A DNA stretch of 30,051 nucleotides from a virus: positions 1 to 30,051 of IMG/VR virus record IMGVR_UViG_3300046819_000092. One strand, written 5' to 3'. Within the stretch, counting starts at the first letter, position 1. The number at the start of each line of letters is the position of its first letter. The position numbers and the translations under genes are program-made. The notes under the pieces are model-generated. The model saw nothing but the letters and a program-made list of their open reading frames with translations. It searched no databases and was not told where the DNA came from. Shown piece by piece: positions 1,336 to 30,051 of this stretch.

Positions 1336-1364
1336 ATAGCGGGGCGATAATTTCAAACCGCTAT
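1336..1364. terminator. Hairpin between convergent genes, possible weak bidirectional terminator
   Basis: ATAGCGG (1336-1342) and CCGCTAT (1358-1364) form a perfect 7-bp stem with a 15-nt loop between the 3' end of the 95-aa gene and the 3' end of the endolysin gene; the endolysin stop codon lies in the right arm. No U-tract follows on either strand, so intrinsic termination would be weak. Position, not composition, is the main argument. Confidence 0.35.
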
Positions 1365-1810
1365 AACCCTAAGAACATCTCACGTTCGGCTTCCCTTCGA
1401 CGTGTTAGGCCTGAAATTACAGCCCCATTCGCCCGATTCCACCTCAGAAACTGCCTAGCCACCTCAATTCTCGCCTCATCTTCATTAAGTAACCTAACTA
1501 ATGTAGAACTAACTAGATTACCTACTCCAATGTTATAACATAAACTAACTAGCGCATCGAATTCATACTGTTCCAGAGGAACTTTAACTGCTTTAGTTAC
1601 CGCTTTCTCGTAGGTAGTTAATGTACTTGCAAATAGTTCCAGAGCTTCTGCCTCACTAATAGCAGGGTCTCTTAGACTTACCGGAGTTCCATCTGCGTAT
1701 CTAGTAGAGCCGTAGCCAATAGTAGGTACTTTAGCACTACATAGATAAGGTTTAGCCCTAAAGCCCTCAAATTGTTTAATAAAATCAATGCCTTGCTGGC
1801 TAATTTTCAT
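1361..1810 (-). CDS. GH24 phage lysozyme (endolysin)
   Basis: Hydrolyses the beta-1,4 link between N-acetylmuramic acid and N-acetylglucosamine in peptidoglycan to release progeny. The family catalytic triad E-8aa-(D/C)-5aa-T is visible as E15, C24 and T30 in FEGFRAKPY...TIGYGST, the Cys-containing variant known from phage P21-type lysozymes. The C-terminal R-W-N-R-A-N-G and G-L-x-x-R-R-x-x-E motifs are also typical. At 149 residues it is close to the usual length. No signal-anchor or SAR segment precedes the catalytic domain, so a holin is needed for export. It is the last gene of the leftward operon, with AAGG upstream of the ATG, nine bases after the fibre-like gene. There is no spanin gene beside it. 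Confidence 0.95.
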   Translation of the reverse strand: MKISQQGIDFIKQFEGFRAKPYLCSAKVPTIGYGSTRYADGTPVSLRDPAISEAEALELFASTLTTYEKAVTKAVKVPLEQYEFDALVSLCYNIGVGNLVSSTLVRLLNEDEARIEVARQFLRWNRANGAVISGLTRRREAEREMFLGL

Positions 1811-1818
1811 AAATTACC

Positions 1819-2895
1819 TTAAAAACTTAGAAATGAATGTGCTTTAGCAGTATTTATAACAGTCACAGAAATAATAATAACTTTAGAAGCATTACCAGTA
1901 TACCCAGTAGATGTTTGCAATACTAACTTATACATAGGGAACAACTCTGGAACTGGTAAACCATAGTTCTCAAAGGTCTCGCCACTTGCCTGATTAGCAT
2001 TATTATACTCCCCATGTCCCATTATTAACTTAACTGGATACTTAATATCATTAGTAGCAACTATATAGTAGGTAACAAATTTACTATTACCAGCTTCTAC
2101 TAATGAGCCAACACCATTAACAATGTTATTATAGTAGACCCTACCACCATTAGCATGAGGAAATATAGGTAAAGCTGGCTCTAATTGGGCATAGCCTGAG
2201 CCATTCAAGTAAACAGTAGGTAAAAGAGCATTAGTTAAAACCTGTTCATAGTTATTAACTGGGCTAACACTATCAGTAATAGCATGTTCTAAGTCCTCAT
2301 CAGCAAACTGAATAGGTGAGCTAAAGGTCAGATTAACATTAGTATCAGAGTTCAAAGTATAGCTAAGTTCCCCACCACTACGCCAGACAGCTCCTCTATT
2401 CCTATGTTCTGAATAATGCCATTGAGTATCCCTAGCTACACTATGTCTTTCATCTCCAGCTATAATAGCTTTCTTTAGAACCGAATCCCAATAAACATAA
2501 CCGATTAAGATGGAACTTCTTATATTCCCATAAGCTCCGTCTAGGGCTAATTGCCCTGTAAGATAGTTATAGATAATATAATTACCACCAGTAACATCTG
2601 GAATTTCTATAGATTTTATGCCAGAAACAGTATATTCTGTGCCTCGGTAATAGACTTTAACAGGAATATCAATAGTCCAAGAGAAAATTCTAGTATTAGT
2701 TACGAAAGAAACACTATTACCAGTTCTAGTGAAAACTCCAGTCAAATCTTGACTAAGATAACCTACAAGAGCAGGGTCAACTGCCCCTGTATCACCTTTC
2801 TCACCCTTACCTGAATTAACCAAAACATTAACAACAGGCTCTTTTACAGTTATAGTGTTTATAACAGTCTCTTTAGCAGTTATAGTTTCAGCCAT
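1819..2895 (-). CDS. Tail fibre/appendage-like protein with collagen-like linker
   Basis: A 358-residue protein. The first 27 residues are a repetitive beta-prone segment (ITAKETVINTITVKEPVVN). A short collagen-like G-x-y stretch follows (GEKGDTG, about 31-37), a linker commonly found in trimeric phage fibres. The rest is rich in Ser, Thr, Asn, Gly and Tyr with no enzymatic motif, as expected of a beta-structured adhesin. It most likely decorates the virion or tail and touches the host surface. The start is behind AGGTAAG and overlaps the preceding stop codon by one base. Homology of the C-terminal domain is not recognised, so receptor type cannot be given. Confidence 0.7.
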   Translation of the reverse strand: MAETITAKETVINTITVKEPVVNVLVNSGKGEKGDTGAVDPALVGYLSQDLTGVFTRTGNSVSFVTNTRIFSWTIDIPVKVYYRGTEYTVSGIKSIEIPDVTGGNYIIYNYLTGQLALDGAYGNIRSSILIGYVYWDSVLKKAIIAGDERHSVARDTQWHYSEHRNRGAVWRSGGELSYTLNSDTNVNLTFSSPIQFADEDLEHAITDSVSPVNNYEQVLTNALLPTVYLNGSGYAQLEPALPIFPHANGGRVYYNNIVNGVGSLVEAGNSKFVTYYIVATNDIKYPVKLIMGHGEYNNANQASGETFENYGLPVPELFPMYKLVLQTSTGYTGNASKVIIISVTVINTAKAHSFLSF

Positions 2896-3257
2896 TATCT
2901 TACCTGCAATTTTAAAGTGCCTACAACAAGTGTATTAACAAAGCCAGTTGACTTCTTAGTTACCTTTAGAAAGTAGTAAAAAGCACCAGCGCCCAGACTT
3001 AGAGTCTGAGCGTCAGTAATTGTAAAGTTTATATTATAATCAGCTAATTGATTAACTACAATTGTACCTGAGGTTGAGCTATAAGTTAGAAGAGCAGTTG
3101 CATCTGTCTTTAATTGTCTAATCTCAGCTACAAGGTCATAGAGAGTCATATCAATTAGATTGCCTTGACTGTCTTCATAGGCAAACTCCATATTAATTGT
3201 ATCCTGAACATACTCAGAATAGTTAATCGTAGCTGTTTCACTATAAACTGTTTTCAT
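2895..3257 (-). CDS. Small beta-rich phage structural protein, 120 aa
   Basis: Probable single beta-sandwich domain. It begins with a Thr/Tyr-rich strand (SETATINYSEYVQDT), then an acidic turn (EDSQGNLIDM), a charged helix around residues 43-55 (YDLVAEIRQLKTD), and ends in strands with FYYFLKVTKKS. This pattern resembles the small N-terminal/upper-baseplate-type domains found beside phage fibre genes, but I cannot assign a named family. It sits directly upstream of the fibre-like gene in the same operon, so an adaptor between virion and fibre is a reasonable guess. The ribosome-binding site is weak, and translation is probably coupled to the gene ending one base upstream. Confidence 0.6.
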   Translation of the reverse strand: MKTVYSETATINYSEYVQDTINMEFAYEDSQGNLIDMTLYDLVAEIRQLKTDATALLTYSSTSGTIVVNQLADYNINFTITDAQTLSLGAGAFYYFLKVTKKSTGFVNTLVVGTLKLQVR

Positions 3258-3258
3258 A

Positions 3259-3630
3259 TTAAGCCCAAACTCTTGATGGTGTTGTAGGTTCTACAATATA
3301 AGGTGCTAACAAATCAGGAATAGCTGAAGATATCTCAGTAACCTCACCTGTTACTTCATCTACTGACTGAGTTACAGTTAAAGAAGCTAGACGTAAATTA
3401 ACATGATAACCTTCTAGCGGGGCTAGTTCAGGATATTCATTGCCATCTATGTCTTCTAGTATGTTACCCGTTGGTTTATGGATAGTACCTACAAAGTCAA
3501 TAGAAGCTAATCCTGTAGGCGCTAGAACTACACTTTCATCTTCATTTTCTACTTCAGCTAGAAAGGATAGATTAGATAAAACATCTTCTGCTTCAGCTTG
3601 ATTTGTGAACTTTAAGTAATAGTCAATCAT
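3259..3630 (-). CDS. Small acidic tail-accessory protein, 123 aa
   Basis: The sequence has the look of a widespread but unnamed phage family: N-terminal MIDYYLKFTNQAEAEDVL, a middle segment GYHVNLRL, and a C-terminal A-P-Y-I-V-E-P-T-T-P-S-R-V-W-A ending. Such proteins are usually encoded beside tail fibre or lectin-type genes, as here. It is acidic and has no membrane or catalytic motif. It starts behind AGAGG and overlaps the stop of the lectin-like gene (ATGA), so the two are translationally coupled. A tail or appendage component or chaperone is inferred from context. Confidence 0.62.
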   Translation of the reverse strand: MIDYYLKFTNQAEAEDVLSNLSFLAEVENEDESVVLAPTGLASIDFVGTIHKPTGNILEDIDGNEYPELAPLEGYHVNLRLASLTVTQSVDEVTGEVTEISSAIPDLLAPYIVEPTTPSRVWA

Positions 3631-4880
3631 CTTGTTAGCCTCTGTAAGTCTGCGTTAGGTAAACGTTTTGGATAGTATTTGATGAATTGGATGTGACCGT
3701 TTAGTATCTGCCCATTATAAACATTTTGCCCTAAGTGTATTCTATCAACAGTAGGTATGGTTGCTGCTAGGTCGGTTCCAACACTTGCACCATTAACACT
3801 AATTGCCACATCATTTAATTTATATGCAAAAGCTGATTTAACGGTACTATAAGCTGTGATAGTCGAGAAGGAAGTTATATCTGCTTGGGGTACCCCTCCT
3901 ACAACTACAGATGCTGCACATAAATTTAATACGTTTTTACGATTAAATATTATATTAATACCGGTGCTATCACTAATATACCAATTCATTTGAGCAGTAG
4001 TTGTAGCTAATGGAGAATCACTTGCACAGTAAACAGTCCCTTCACTCTGGTTATACCAACTACTAAAGTTACTACCCACCATGCTTGCATTATCTGCCGC
4101 ACGAGTTACCGTAGCTGAGGTTGTTGGGATGTATGAGGTTGGGAAAGCGCCTGCTTCTAATTGAGCGCCCCATGCGTAGAGTTCATCACCAGCAGCTGAA
4201 GCACCATCAGAAGTTTGAGCTGCTACAATTCCATAAGTAATAGATGTTAATACCGACAGTACAGTAAATGTAACTGATATTCGATACCATCCATTACCTA
4301 CCGATGTAATACTTGGCAGAAACGAACCAAAATCAGCTGTAGCAACACCAGCTGACGACACAACACCTGTAGCAATATTAAAGTAAGGACCGGACACTGT
4401 AGCACTACCACCAACAGCTGCAATCCTTAGTCTACAAAATGAAGTATTACTAGATTTGACATACGCTGAGACTGTGTATGTAGTAGTTGTACTTGCTATT
4501 GTTTGTGAAGGAGTCAGTGCCGCTCCAGAATAATTAAATTTATCCGCAGTAGTTGTATTATCGGGTGCAGTAATTGCATTTGTTGTTACCGTGACTCCAG
4601 CACCTTTTACCCAAGCCGCATTATCAAACTCACTACTATAGGTCAGTAAATTAGTCCTCTGCTCCTCAATCAACAAACCTTTAGGCGCTAAAGTTACAGG
4701 GTCGTAGTCGAATCTTGGTAGATTACTAGTTACTGACTCTATAATTCCACTAGAATTTACTCTTGTACCGCTGCTTGCTCTAGTAAAAGTAATCCTAGAA
4801 TCTAAGACTCCAGAAGTAAAGTCAAGTGCTAAACTAATTCCTTTACTCAATCTCTTTTTCTGAAATAATAAAAGATTCAT
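3627..4880 (-). CDS. Two-domain lectin-like tail protein (carbohydrate-binding beta-sandwiches)
   Basis: A 417-residue protein with a short basic N-terminus. It continues with the phage motif SRITFTRASSGTRVNSSG and PKGLLIEEQRTNLL (about 28-80), which introduces a jelly-roll domain of the CBM/concanavalin-A-like type (about 85-255) ending in Y-A-W-G-A-Q-L-E-A-G. A second LamG-like sandwich follows (about 280-417), ending GHIQFIKYYPKRL. These domains commonly bind surface glycans, so the protein probably supplies host-surface recognition on a tail appendage. The start is behind AGAGGA. It lies in the leftward operon with the fibre-like gene and endolysin rather than downstream of J. The fold call is from motif pattern; the specific sugar cannot be predicted. 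Confidence 0.72.
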   Translation of the reverse strand: MNLLLFQKKRLSKGISLALDFTSGVLDSRITFTRASSGTRVNSSGIIESVTSNLPRFDYDPVTLAPKGLLIEEQRTNLLTYSSEFDNAAWVKGAGVTVTTNAITAPDNTTTADKFNYSGAALTPSQTIASTTTTYTVSAYVKSSNTSFCRLRIAAVGGSATVSGPYFNIATGVVSSAGVATADFGSFLPSITSVGNGWYRISVTFTVLSVLTSITYGIVAAQTSDGASAAGDELYAWGAQLEAGAFPTSYIPTTSATVTRAADNASMVGSNFSSWYNQSEGTVYCASDSPLATTTAQMNWYISDSTGINIIFNRKNVLNLCAASVVVGGVPQADITSFSTITAYSTVKSAFAYKLNDVAISVNGASVGTDLAATIPTVDRIHLGQNVYNGQILNGHIQFIKYYPKRLPNADLQRLTR

Positions 4881-4889
4881 ATATTCCTC

Positions 4890-5243
4890 TTAATAGAAGC
4901 AAGTAATAGTTCTATCTGCACCTTGAGCTACAGGACTTGCCGCTGTACCAGAACGGAAACGAACATATCTAAAAGCAGCGAAAGTCACTACATCAATAGC
5001 ATAAGCTGCACCTGCAATAGCGCCAGTATAAACACCAGCTTGTATATTAGTGTAGTCAAAAACCGTACTAATCCAATTTACATTATCATTACTAACTTCT
5101 AAACTCACAGAAGCAGCAGTCCAGCTAGAAGGCATTAAGAAAGAATTAACTAACTCGCTTACCAAGTCAACACTATCAGAAACACTAGCACCAGATAAGA
5201 TAGTTACTTCCTTAGCCTGTCTAGTAGAAATATCATCACTCAT
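4890..5243 (-). CDS. Beta-rich virion protein, homologous to the domain encoded at 21944
   Basis: A 117-residue protein that aligns almost end to end with residues about 64-169 of the 172-aa protein encoded between M and L on the other strand. Shared blocks are SGASVS, WTAA, LEVS-x-DN-x-NW, FRY-[VI]-R-[FL]-RSGT and PV-x-Q-x-A-x-RT. It lacks the 60-residue N-terminal part of that protein, so it is a free-standing version of the C-terminal domain. The pattern suggests a beta-sandwich that binds a virion component or a surface ligand. It starts behind AGGGG and is encoded directly upstream of the lectin-like gene. Function is inferred from its relative's position in the tail-tip cluster. Confidence 0.68.
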   Translation of the reverse strand: MSDDISTRQAKEVTILSGASVSDSVDLVSELVNSFLMPSSWTAASVSLEVSNDNVNWISTVFDYTNIQAGVYTGAIAGAAYAIDVVTFAAFRYVRFRSGTAASPVAQGADRTITCFY

Positions 5244-5252
5244 ATAAACCCC

Positions 5253-5483
5253 TTAAAAATACTTATTAATTACAAATGTAGCAATAGCAGCTATGCCACC
5301 TACTACAGTAGAAATCCCACCTATATAACCCATTTGCTTAGACCTTTCAAGTTGCATCTCTTGCAATGTTTCGGCTATTTCCTTCAAAGAAACCGTAATA
5401 CTTTCTCTAAACTCTTTACTATCATCAGAGACATTCTTTAAATTCTCTTCTAACTTAGCTACTCGACAAGGTAAATCTGGCAT
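5253..5483 (-). CDS. XhlA-like coiled-coil membrane protein (possible holin accessory)
   Basis: A 76-residue protein with an acidic heptad-like coiled coil (about 7-48) followed by one hydrophobic segment (about 52-72, GYIGGISTVVGGIAAIATFV) and a short NKYF tail. This is the organisation of the haemolysin XhlA-type proteins that associate with the cytoplasmic membrane and take part in lysis in some phages. It is encoded in the same leftward operon as the endolysin, which supports a lysis role, although five genes separate them. The start is behind AGGA. A structural role cannot be excluded. Confidence 0.6.
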   Translation of the reverse strand: MPDLPCRVAKLEENLKNVSDDSKEFRESITVSLKEIAETLQEMQLERSKQMGYIGGISTVVGGIAAIATFVINKYF

Positions 5484-5492
5484 AACTTAATC

Positions 5493-5873
5493 CTATAAAT
5501 AGATAACTGATTTAGGTAGGTCTAAACTATTCCAAGGAAGCTTTGAAAGTTGTCCTGCTCTCTTATTCTTAAAGATATGATTATTCTTTCTGGCTAATGC
5601 AAATACTGTAGGTGAGACCCGCATTAGTCTACATCTTTCTATCCTAGACCACTCATCTTTATATAAAGGATTGAGTTTTCTTATTCTAACGTGTCTACGG
5701 TAGTTAGCTAGAGCAATATAGAAAGAAGTTGTTCTATAAATAGCTTCGGGAAGGTCAGTATAATCTATGACAAATACATCACCTTCGTAGGCTTTTGCCC
5801 ATAAGTCTTTAAGGTAAAGAGTTAGCTTTATATCTTGGTAACGCATAAATAGTTTAATTTTGTCATAAAGCAT
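5493..5873 (-). CDS. Hypothetical basic protein, first gene of the leftward operon
   Basis: Not recognised. 126 residues, strongly basic in its second half (RRHVRIRKLN, RIERCRLMR, RKNNHIFKNKR) and rich in Tyr and Leu. The ATG at 5871-5873 lies inside the best -10 candidate of the leftward promoter and has only a poor ribosome-binding site. Translation may instead begin at the ATG ten codons in (5844-5846), also without a clear site, or the message may be nearly leaderless. No membrane segment or known motif is seen. Its place at the head of the operon that contains tail appendage and lysis genes gives no direct clue to function. Confidence 0.6.
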   Translation of the reverse strand: MLYDKIKLFMRYQDIKLTLYLKDLWAKAYEGDVFVIDYTDLPEAIYRTTSFYIALANYRRHVRIRKLNPLYKDEWSRIERCRLMRVSPTVFALARKNNHIFKNKRAGQLSKLPWNSLDLPKSVIYL

Positions 5874-27869: not shown

Positions 27870-28190
27870 ATGAGTTATGGATTACAGGTTTTTGATAGTA
27901 GTGGTAATCTTGAGGTTGATATTAGTAGTAGATTAAGTAGGTATATGGGAAAGATAGATTTAGCCATGACAGCTGCTATGGTTAATTCTACTGACTGGCC
28001 TTATGATAAATACCATGGGACTGTAAGTTTTCCCGATATAGTAGACGATGGTACTTGGATGCTTTCTACTAATATAAGTGATGATACTGAATTTGCCTTT
28101 GCCTCTATAACATCTACAGGAGTGATTACAGTAGATTTATATTGGAGGGTCAGTAATTATACTTTTTCTATATATGTATTCAGATTATGA
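27870..28190 (+). CDS. Tail accessory protein with MSYGLQ start, 106 aa
   Basis: 106 residues behind the strong site GGAGG at 27861-27865. Begins MSYGLQVFDSSGNLEVDIS, a pattern seen at the start of many small phage proteins encoded after J; the next gene begins the same way (MSYGFQ). The remainder is beta-prone and ends in aromatic strands (FSIYVFRL). It is probably a virion-associated beta protein contacting the J tip or host surface, but no function is established. It overlaps the next gene by four bases (ATGA). Confidence 0.65.
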   Translation: MSYGLQVFDSSGNLEVDISSRLSRYMGKIDLAMTAAMVNSTDWPYDKYHGTVSFPDIVDDGTWMLSTNISDDTEFAFASITSTGVITVDLYWRVSNYTFSIYVFRL

Positions 28191-28852
28191 GTTACGGTTT
28201 TCAAGCAATAAATACCAGTAATACTATCCAAATAGATGAGAATTATAAGAATTATCAAGTCTATTCCTATGGTAGTGTTAATCTAAACACATTAGGGGCT
28301 TTTTCAAGGTACTCTCACATATTCACAGCCCCTTTAAATTCTATTTTACTAATATCTGACCATAATTATACTAACACAATAATTAGTTGTTACTCTATAT
28401 TTGGTTATGGGGTTACTGAATTTACTGTACTCTCGGAAGATATAATTACATTAGATTTTATTATTCTTGTACTTGGAACCGACTCACTCCCCTCATTATC
28501 TGGATATGGTCTCAATGTGTACAATCAAAGTGGTGAAGTTGTCTATACAAGTAACTTAAAAACACCACAGTTTATAGCTACTGGAGCTAAAGGTTCCCCA
28601 ATATCATTGCCTTCTTCTAGTAAACGTAGGTATTTAGAGGTTTCAACCTTAGGTAAATTTGGTCAAGTCTGTTATCCTATAGAAGGTGGTTCAGACTATT
28701 TTCTATGGTATTCTTTTGATGCGTTTCAGATGCCTAATAATAACTATATAGGAGCAACCGAAATAGAATACTTTTCAGGTATGAATTTAGTAGTTGACCA
28801 AGGTTTCTTTCTAGGTCATAAAGGAACAACAAGAAATATAGCGGAGTTTTAA
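28187..28852 (+). CDS. Tail accessory protein with MSYGFQ start, 221 aa
   Basis: 221 residues, about twice the length of its upstream neighbour, with a related N-terminus (MSYGFQAINTSNTIQIDE). Rich in Ser, Asn, Tyr and Ile, beta-prone, no membrane segment or catalytic motif. It lies between J and the tail-chaperone-like gene, where phages often place receptor-contact or tip-decoration proteins. Its stop codon abuts the next ATG (TAA-ATG). Function is inferred from position only. AT content is high even for this genome in 28187-28500. Confidence 0.62.
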   Translation: MSYGFQAINTSNTIQIDENYKNYQVYSYGSVNLNTLGAFSRYSHIFTAPLNSILLISDHNYTNTIISCYSIFGYGVTEFTVLSEDIITLDFIILVLGTDSLPSLSGYGLNVYNQSGEVVYTSNLKTPQFIATGAKGSPISLPSSSKRRYLEVSTLGKFGQVCYPIEGGSDYFLWYSFDAFQMPNNNYIGATEIEYFSGMNLVVDQGFFLGHKGTTRNIAEF

Positions 28853-29323
28853 ATGACACAAAATGTAATAATATATAATAAACAAACAGGTTTTATAGAA
28901 AGTTACCAAGAAATAGTAGTAGATGCATTTGAGGACGGAGCGGCTATAGGTGGAGGTTCCGTAGTCTTATTACTTACTGAAAGCTTAGTTAATTCTGGAG
29001 AAGTTATAGGTAATAGCTTTATAAAGAATAACAAGCTTAAACCCTTGTCTAGCAAACCTTCTAACTACCACATCTGGAACCTAGAAACAGAACAATGGGA
29101 AGAACCTGAAAATTACCAACAACTACTATTCAACGAAGCAGCTAGTAAAGTAAAATTAGAACGTCAAAGGTTATTAACTGCAACTGACTGGACAGATACG
29201 GTATCAGCATCTACAAGATTAGAAAACTACAATGCTTGGCAGTTCTATCGCCAGCAACTTAGAGATATAACAAAACAAGAAGGTTATCCATTTAATGTTA
29301 TCTGGCCTACTCAGCCAGTATAG
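28853..29323 (+). CDS. Tail fibre assembly chaperone-like protein (Phage_tail_APC type)
   Basis: 156 residues. The C-terminal half contains the family signature R-Q-R-L-L-T-A-T-D-W-T near 103-113 and W-Q-F-Y-R-Q-Q-L-R-D-I-T-K-Q-E-G-Y-P-F-N-V-I-W-P at the end. The N-terminal part carries the usual tail-tip-interacting segment (Q-T-G-F-I-E-S-Y-Q). Such proteins are thought to help fold or attach fibre or tip proteins. It follows the two MSYG genes and precedes the holin by eight bases. GGAG lies in the preceding codons. The family is confident from the C-terminal pattern; the client protein is not known. Confidence 0.78.
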   Translation: MTQNVIIYNKQTGFIESYQEIVVDAFEDGAAIGGGSVVLLLTESLVNSGEVIGNSFIKNNKLKPLSSKPSNYHIWNLETEQWEEPENYQQLLFNEAASKVKLERQRLLTATDWTDTVSASTRLENYNAWQFYRQQLRDITKQEGYPFNVIWPTQPV

Positions 29324-29337
29324 GAGCTATTATGTCA
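29322..29337 (+). repeat. 16-bp repeat, copy 1 (holin RBS and start), inverted copy at 29937-29952
   Basis: AGGAGCTATTATGTCA covers the ribosome-binding site, ATG and second codon of the holin gene. The same 16 bases occur on the minus strand at 29952-29937, in the same position relative to the small convergent gene. Identity stops on both sides of the 16 bases. Confidence 0.85.
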
Positions 29338-29742
29338 CTTGACCCTATAACAGCAGGATTTGACCTAGTTAAAACTGGCCTAGACAAGTTCTTTCCAGAT
29401 GCCGATACAGAACTTAAAGGTAAATTAGAAGCCGCAGCTACTGAAATTAACAACAACTACCAGTTACAACTAGCTCAGATTGAGGTAAATAAGGTAGAAG
29501 CTGGTAGTTCTAGTCTATTTACCTCAGGTTGGAGACCATTTATCGGCTGGATTTGTGGACTTGCACTAGCCTATTGCTCTATACTAGAGCCACTACTTCG
29601 GTTCATAGCTAATGTACTATTTGGCTACACAGGCTCTTTCCCTACTATAGATACAGATATAACTATGCAAGTTCTACTAGGTATATTAGGTCTTGGAGCT
29701 ATGCGTAGTTATGATAAGGTACAGGGTACTGTTAGAAAGTAG
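29332..29742 (+). CDS. Holin, GTA-type three-transmembrane family
   Basis: 136 residues. Forms the membrane lesion that releases endolysin. An N-terminal amphipathic helix (about 24-56) is followed by the family motif G-W-R-P-F-I-G-W-I-C-G-L-A-L-A-Y (66-81), continuing hydrophobic to about 97. A final membrane segment lies at 112-124 (M-Q-V-L-L-G-I-L-G-L-G-A-M) with the basic tail R-S-Y-D-K. This matches the 3TM holins of gene transfer agents and many siphophages. GGAG is five bases before the ATG. It ends the rightward late operon, far from the endolysin gene, which lies in the leftward operon at 1361-1810. Confidence 0.88.
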   Translation: MSLDPITAGFDLVKTGLDKFFPDADTELKGKLEAAATEINNNYQLQLAQIEVNKVEAGSSSLFTSGWRPFIGWICGLALAYCSILEPLLRFIANVLFGYTGSFPTIDTDITMQVLLGILGLGAMRSYDKVQGTVRK

Positions 29743-29758
29743 ACTAGGTACTGGAATG

Positions 29759-29795
29759 GCGTTATTTGCTAATTTTCGCATTTAACGCTGTTTTT
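29759..29795 (+). terminator. Terminator of the rightward late operon
   Basis: GCGTTATTTGC (29759-29769) and GCATTTAACGC (29778-29788) pair except for two central positions, 8-nt loop, followed by TGTTTTT (29789-29795). It lies 17 nt after the holin stop and overlaps the 3' end of the convergent small gene. On the minus strand no U-tract follows. Confidence 0.7.
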
Positions 29796-29942
29796 CTCGT
29801 CACCCTCGCCAATGGCCTGTTTTATGAATATCGCGTCATCAGCGCAGTCAGCCTCGTTATTTTCGTCATCATCGACCGTTTCACAGGCCAATTTAACGTT
29901 TTCCAGCTCCCTAGCTCTTAATCTTTCTAAATAAGTTGACAT
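29769..29942 (-). CDS. Small acidic protein on the opposite strand, 57 aa
   Basis: Not recognised. I choose ATG 29942-29940, which has GGAG with seven bases before it and sits downstream of an extended -10 promoter. The frame stays open to an ATG at 30014-30012, which would add 24 residues with a hydrophobic, signal-like start, but that start would lie upstream of the promoter. The protein has a basic N-terminal helix (TYLERLRARELENVK) and an acidic remainder (D-D-D-E-N-N-E-A-D-C-A-D-D) with three Cys. By my count the gene is 74/174 GC, and 29801-29890 is about half GC, richer than the phage genes around it. It is the only gene here with its own promoter at the end of a convergent operon, as in a moron. 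Confidence 0.6.
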   Translation of the reverse strand: MSTYLERLRARELENVKLACETVDDDENNEADCADDAIFIKQAIGEGDEKNSVKCEN

Positions 29943-29952
29943 AATAGCTCCT
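29937..29952 (-). repeat. 16-bp repeat, copy 2 (small gene RBS and start)
   Basis: On the minus strand this reads AGGAGCTATTATGTCA, identical to 29322-29337 on the plus strand. The pair forms a perfect inverted repeat around a 599-bp segment that contains the bodies of both the holin and the small gene. Confidence 0.85.
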
Positions 29953-29967
29953 GTTGTAGTTGAAGCT

Positions 29968-29976
29968 ATTATACCA
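29968..29976 (-). promoter_or_regulatory. Extended -10 promoter for the small leftward gene
   Basis: On the minus strand TGG TATAAT (29976-29968) is a perfect extended -10 element. The -35 region 17 nt upstream is poor (TTATTA), which extended -10 promoters tolerate. Transcription would begin near 29961, giving a leader of about 20 nt before the ATG at 29942. Confidence 0.68.
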
Positions 29977-30051
29977 GAACTATTTGCGGATAATAAGAGT
30001 AATACTAGAAACATTCCTACCTATTGACTTCAAAGTATAAGAAAGTTTTAA

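Follow-up and report, generated by a model that had tools for sequence, protein, structure and literature searches.

A small acidic protein gene behind a Rep_3 initiator gene in a probable phage-plasmid and a possible translation gate at its start

A gene for an acidic protein of 57 amino acids (29769-29942, minus strand) was found directly behind a plasmid-type replication initiator gene at the end of a virus record of 30,051 bases, which was analyzed over its full length and is referred to here as the window. The gene appears to have its own extended -10 promoter, and this promoter lies in one arm of a predicted hairpin, the other arm of which contains the start codon. The arrangement suggests that the start of the gene would be hidden in read-through RNA from rep, while RNA from its own promoter could be translated. 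Taken together, we give the gene, its linkage to rep and its gated expression an even chance; the gate itself is a plausible candidate.

The 57-codon gene and its product

An earlier note on this DNA had described a 57-codon frame on the minus strand, nested in a frame of 81 codons (29769-30014, minus strand), and both were confirmed. The shorter frame is preceded by the Shine-Dalgarno sequence AGGAG (29948-29952, minus strand), which starts 10 nt upstream of the ATG and is invariant in nine loci. A scan of viral contigs with the 57-amino-acid gene yielded 13 candidate stretches and nine relatives in nine IMG/VR contigs with 88-100% identity, and the same nine contigs were obtained when the scan was repeated with the alignment as query. 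One relative, L002/L091, matches the window at 100% identity over 5012 bases, which places it in the window's own population. The frame is open in all nine related loci and is longer by one codon in L009. In ten sequences, which include mutually close relatives, seven of ten variable sites were synonymous and three were not (P=0.0045 for random placement); codons 29-34 were excluded from this count, as the alignment there reads as alleles differing by an apparent matched in-frame insertion and deletion. When 29743-30051 was shuffled 2000 times with its dinucleotides preserved, no shuffle contained a frame of at least 57 codons preceded by a Shine-Dalgarno sequence, and 4.05% of 2000 contained one starting from any ATG. 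The reality of the gene is thus solidly supported by its sequence, and it is very likely translated. It had also been described as GC-richer than its surroundings; a difference exists (74/174, 42.5%, vs. a mean of 36.6%), but the contrast is weak, with 7.4% of 174-nt windows reaching at least 73/174.

The predicted product is acidic, as had been noted, with 16 acidic and 7 basic residues and a pI of 4.2. An AlphaFold model of low confidence (pLDDT 56.5) contains a helix at residues 4-20 only, and the acidic tail is probably disordered. From the helix and the acidic tail one might guess at a soluble cytosolic regulator or a host-interaction factor, an assignment that we regard as doubtful. The homology search that had been proposed for the 57 residues returned the nine IMG/VR contigs and no family, structure or defence match. 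In PHROGs, Pfam, PADLOC and NCBIfam no match to the protein was detected, and neither 72,556 plasmid records nor 31 candidate stretches from the genome contigs contained a relative. Three weak hits were obtained in the PDB, the best being a designed protein (E=0.029). With the 81-amino-acid form as query, no match was found in 50,697 phage records, and two sub-threshold matches were found in Pfam (E=0.04 and 0.068).

This longer form, which begins with a hydrophobic stretch, had been put forward as a possible second product with a signal sequence. It is rejected here as an artefact. Its extra 24 codons lie over the 3' end of rep in a different frame, and transcription is predicted to start (at about 29962) only downstream of its first codon. 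The form is missing in five of eight informative relatives (L004, L006, L008, L009 and L010) and occurs in L002, L003 and L007, all of which share the rep type of the window; the ninth relative, L005, is too short to be judged. Given the overlap with rep and the absence in five of eight relatives, the hydrophobic 'signal' can be regarded as a by-product of rep codons and leader. An antisense frame for 51 hydrophobic residues (29766-29921, plus strand) starts with TTG, had no match in PHROGs or Pfam and is likewise not supported. A comparable 51-codon frame is present in eight of nine relatives, all except L009, and its hydrophobicity would result from acidic codons being read from the opposite strand.

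The rep gene, the holin side and the phage-plasmid setting

The window closes within a Rep_3 initiator gene, of which it contains the final 72 bases (29980-30051, minus strand; 23 codons and the stop codon, truncated by the end of the record). This gene is co-directional with the 57-amino-acid gene and has an identical tail in the 234-amino-acid gene of L002, L003 and L007. The copy in L007, the last 23 codons of which match those of the window, matched PF01051 (1.9e-23) and PF21205 (8.5e-15), and both Rep3 domains, WH1 and WH2, are present. Its protein is 31.6% identical to RepM of Moraxella bovis, and Rep of this type is 28.2% identical to a protein of Burkholderia phage KS14 annotated as replication initiation protein. 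It resembles the Rep_3 initiators of this phage and of Acinetobacter and Moraxella plasmids in its two domains; unlike these reference systems, it scored 136.9 bits against the NCBIfam RepM model, below the cut-off of 250 bits, and the 57-amino-acid gene is unmatched in those collections. In L007, two overlapping tandem rep-like genes were observed (882-1547 and 1534-2238), the first with only Rep3_N and the second with both Rep3 domains.

A second rep lineage, complete in L010, encodes a protein 48% identical to the window-type Rep, and its similarity to the window begins at the rep stop codon. Rep_3 is thus located upstream of the 57-amino-acid gene in both rep alleles. Since L007 combines the rep type of the window with the other allele of the minigene, rep and minigene have probably recombined. 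Searches with rep gave 92 candidates and six relatives in the viral contigs, where four of the six were among the minigene contigs found before, and 55 candidates without a relative in the genome contigs. The gap between the rep stop codon and the extended -10 element is three bases long and leaves no room for a terminator, so that rep RNA would very probably run on into the minigene.

On the other side, a holin gene (29332-29742, plus strand; phrog_3427, 5e-30; PF11351, 1.5e-14) converges on the 57-amino-acid gene, in agreement with the earlier description of a gene running against the late operon. A hairpin followed by TTTTT (29758-29795, plus strand), which is likely to serve the holin side as intrinsic terminator, extends over the 3' end of the 57-amino-acid gene; the hairpin was predicted in six of six relatives folded. 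A consensus scan of 28000-30051 detected no minus-strand terminator and also missed this plus-strand one, probably because of its internal loop. In L009 a tail-fibre-assembly-like gene (578-1291) takes the place of the holin gene, and minigene and terminator hairpin are kept; this contig of 5572 bases (L009/L098) has the minigene and no holin match. The sequence GGAGCTATTATGTCA was observed twice, at the start of the holin gene (29323-29337, plus strand) and at that of the minigene (29937-29951, minus strand), with the two copies inverted and some 600 bases from each other.

When the holin was used as query, 72 of 80 loci had at least 300 bases past the holin, and four (L011, L012, L013 and L016) carried the 57-amino-acid gene, all from contigs already known. 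The other holin-bearing loci gave merely two 21-residue chance matches with E above 7, and none had the 57-amino-acid gene. Other small genes lie between rep and the lysis genes in L022, which makes the place of the 57-amino-acid gene look like an accessory position.

Terminase, portal, head, tape measure and tail genes are present in the record, so that virion genes and rep are found on the same element. No terminal repeat was found in the record, and megablast of window positions 6001-30051 against phage records gave no match. Most likely, the record represents an uncultured phage-plasmid that is incomplete. A leftward block (1361-5873, minus strand) with lysozyme and a tail protein is separate from the rightward late operon, and a second, weak holin match was observed in it (phrog_689, E=6.4e-4).

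Upstream of the rep operon, and outside the window, L007 has two exact direct repeats with a period of 22 bp (520-562) that are likely iterons, and the first base of the window corresponds to the base after these repeats. Positions 1-127 of the window are identical to positions 1-127 of L002, the other contig of the same population, where they form the head of the rep operon. The promoter in this region (TTGACA-17-GATAAT) also heads the genes at the left end of the window. When the promoter region was compared with the inverted repeat, P was 0.078. The origin itself is absent from the record, and these data suggest that an iteron origin is flanked by two outward-facing copies of the promoter region, which head divergent operons. 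Such a duplication around the origin would explain why the assembly stopped there.

Promoter and leader hairpin

The earlier note had assigned the gene its own extended -10 promoter, an assignment with which the sequence is in accord. The element TGGTATAAT (29968-29976, minus strand) is present in seven of the eight relatives reaching that site. In the eighth, L009, it is replaced by TGATATAAT, and the sequence of L005 begins at TATAAT. By itself, TGNTATAAT is not rare (3 seen vs. 2.8 expected per window). The promoter has no good -35 box and was not listed by a sigma-70 scan that needs one, which found 7 sites with 8.1 expected by shuffling. The case for the promoter is based on its position and conservation.

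The extended -10 element is contained in the 5' arm of the hairpin (29962-29976, minus strand), and part of the Shine-Dalgarno sequence, the start codon and the second codon are contained in the 3' arm (29937-29951, minus strand). The arms, TGGTATAATAGCTTC (29976-29962) and GGAGCTATTATGTCA (29951-29937), are complementary at 15 of 15 positions, three of them wobble pairs. The fold of the start region was the strongest among 38 genes tested. Shuffled sequences folded as well in 0 of 200 cases over 48 nt and in 5 of 200 over 73 nt. With the -10 element, the Shine-Dalgarno sequence and the ATG held fixed, P was 0.0023, and it was 0.004 when ATT was fixed as well. Of the 48-nt stretches sampled from the record (n=8574), 4.7% folded at least as well as -11.3 kcal/mol. 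For read-through RNA, the predicted pairing was 0.80 for the Shine-Dalgarno sequence and 0.97 for the ATG; for RNA from the gene's own promoter, with a start at 29962 assumed, it was 0.41 for both. According to these models, the own-promoter RNA would free the start only partly.

Among the relatives, one of 42 leader sites is variable, compared with seven synonymous changes for some 29 sites of that type in the gene (Fisher P=0.0066, indicative only, as counts were set by hand and the relatives are close). The first five bases of the leader overlap the end of rep, and L005 covers 31 of the 42 sites. The sole substitution, in L009, changes a G-U into an A-U pair at the free base of TGNTATAAT and is no real covariation. 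The near-invariance of the leader could stem from promoter and ribosome binding site alone, and TATAAT is nearly complementary to ATTATG regardless. A search of 29300-30051 against Rfam gave two chance-level matches far below the cut-offs and none on the leader.

The frequency of such gates was surveyed in 123 sequences (819 kb, overlapping loci included), which contain 481 distinct contexts of an ATG preceded by a Shine-Dalgarno sequence. TATAAT was located upstream in 12 contexts, and five gates were obtained, with 0.35 expected by shuffling. As four of the five belong to the family of the 57-amino-acid gene and the fifth, L112, had been fetched by the stem pattern itself, the survey gives no independent support. 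The stem-pattern search had returned 18 stretches; nine were known contigs, and of the other nine L112 alone satisfied the criteria of the survey. In L112, a contig of 291 kb, the same layout of a promoter within the stem of a leader was observed at 4790-4823, in front of a gene without evident likeness. Its neighbours are two genes that we take to resemble serine recombinase and TnpB.

A candidate translation gate and its alternatives

We propose that an accessory gene of a phage-plasmid, placed immediately behind the rep operon, would be driven by its own extended -10 promoter. Transcripts from rep would enter the gene but fold and hide its start, while transcripts from its own promoter, expected to start near 29962 where the 5' arm ends, would lack this arm and be translated. 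The level of the protein would then follow its own promoter, independently of the strength of rep transcription. We assign a probability of about 0.45 to this reading, in which a sigma-70 extended -10 promoter inside a translation-blocking stem behind rep would insulate an accessory protein from rep transcription. With the same reservation, a single stretch of 15 nt may act as a promoter on the DNA and as a start-blocker on the read-through RNA, and, equally tentatively, a gate of the T4 gene e type might operate without need for a phage-specific late promoter.

The model for comparison is provided by gene e and I-TevI of T4. Excerpts of two papers describe that the promoter adjoins the ribosome binding site, that longer upstream transcripts bury ribosome binding site and start in a hairpin, and that the transcript from the own promoter is without the 5' part of the hairpin; soc and 49 are named as further cases of a hidden start (PMC3014915, PMC2988022). 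As far as these excerpts describe the T4 genes, the 57-amino-acid gene resembles them in that its ribosome binding site and start are predicted to be paired in the longer transcript; its -10 element lies in the 5' arm, and with an assumed start at about 29962 its own transcript would lack this arm. It differs from them, within the same excerpts, in having a host sigma-70-like extended -10 promoter instead of a T4 late promoter and a plasmid-type rep as the upstream gene, and its gate is a prediction.

A possible alternative is a plain accessory gene of the moron type, with a real promoter and ribosome binding site. The hairpin would then simply follow from TATAAT standing close to an ATTATG start, and the protein would act on the host, perhaps by countering superinfection or a defence system. 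The gene resembles moron loci in its predicted own promoter, the orientation against the lytic genes of the late operon and a patchy distribution, with the gene not being found in the other holin-bearing loci and with other small genes filling the rep-lysis slot of L022. A region antisense to lytic genes is called characteristic of such loci in an excerpt of PMC7067206. However, the fold remained exceptional (P=0.004) with -10 element, Shine-Dalgarno sequence, ATT and ATG fixed, and neither a defence-system nor any other family match was obtained. The lone gene of the earlier note is also hard to reconcile with a position directly behind, and in the same direction as, a Rep_3 gene, and no terminator was found on its own strand.

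The inverted repeat might instead be a DNA operator at which Rep, a phage repressor or the 57-amino-acid protein binds the -10 and start region. A perfect-to-wobble repeat that spans the promoter and is invariant except for one base would suit such a site, but the leader showed no resemblance to the iteron-like repeat of 22 bp (P=0.75 and 0.99), and GGAGCTATTATG recurs exactly at the start of the holin gene but near none of the window's other promoters, which makes an operator improbable. That the minus-strand transcript serves as antisense RNA to the holin gene, with the reading frame being secondary, would fit the failure to find a minus-strand terminator ahead of the holin gene; we consider it very improbable in view of the synonymous bias in the frame and of the L009/L098 contig, which keeps the minigene without a holin. 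For the gated reading, the new element is the complementarity between the -10 element and the start; if real, the gate would be a mechanism of a known kind in a context new for it.

These results correct the tempting view that the 57-amino-acid gene is a lone moron whose long form is secreted, and assign it to the replication module of a probable phage-plasmid that is uncultured. A working gate would be a compact means to place an accessory gene behind an essential one with its expression uncoupled, and a -10 element complementary to a downstream start would be a signature that can be searched for in other phages and plasmids.
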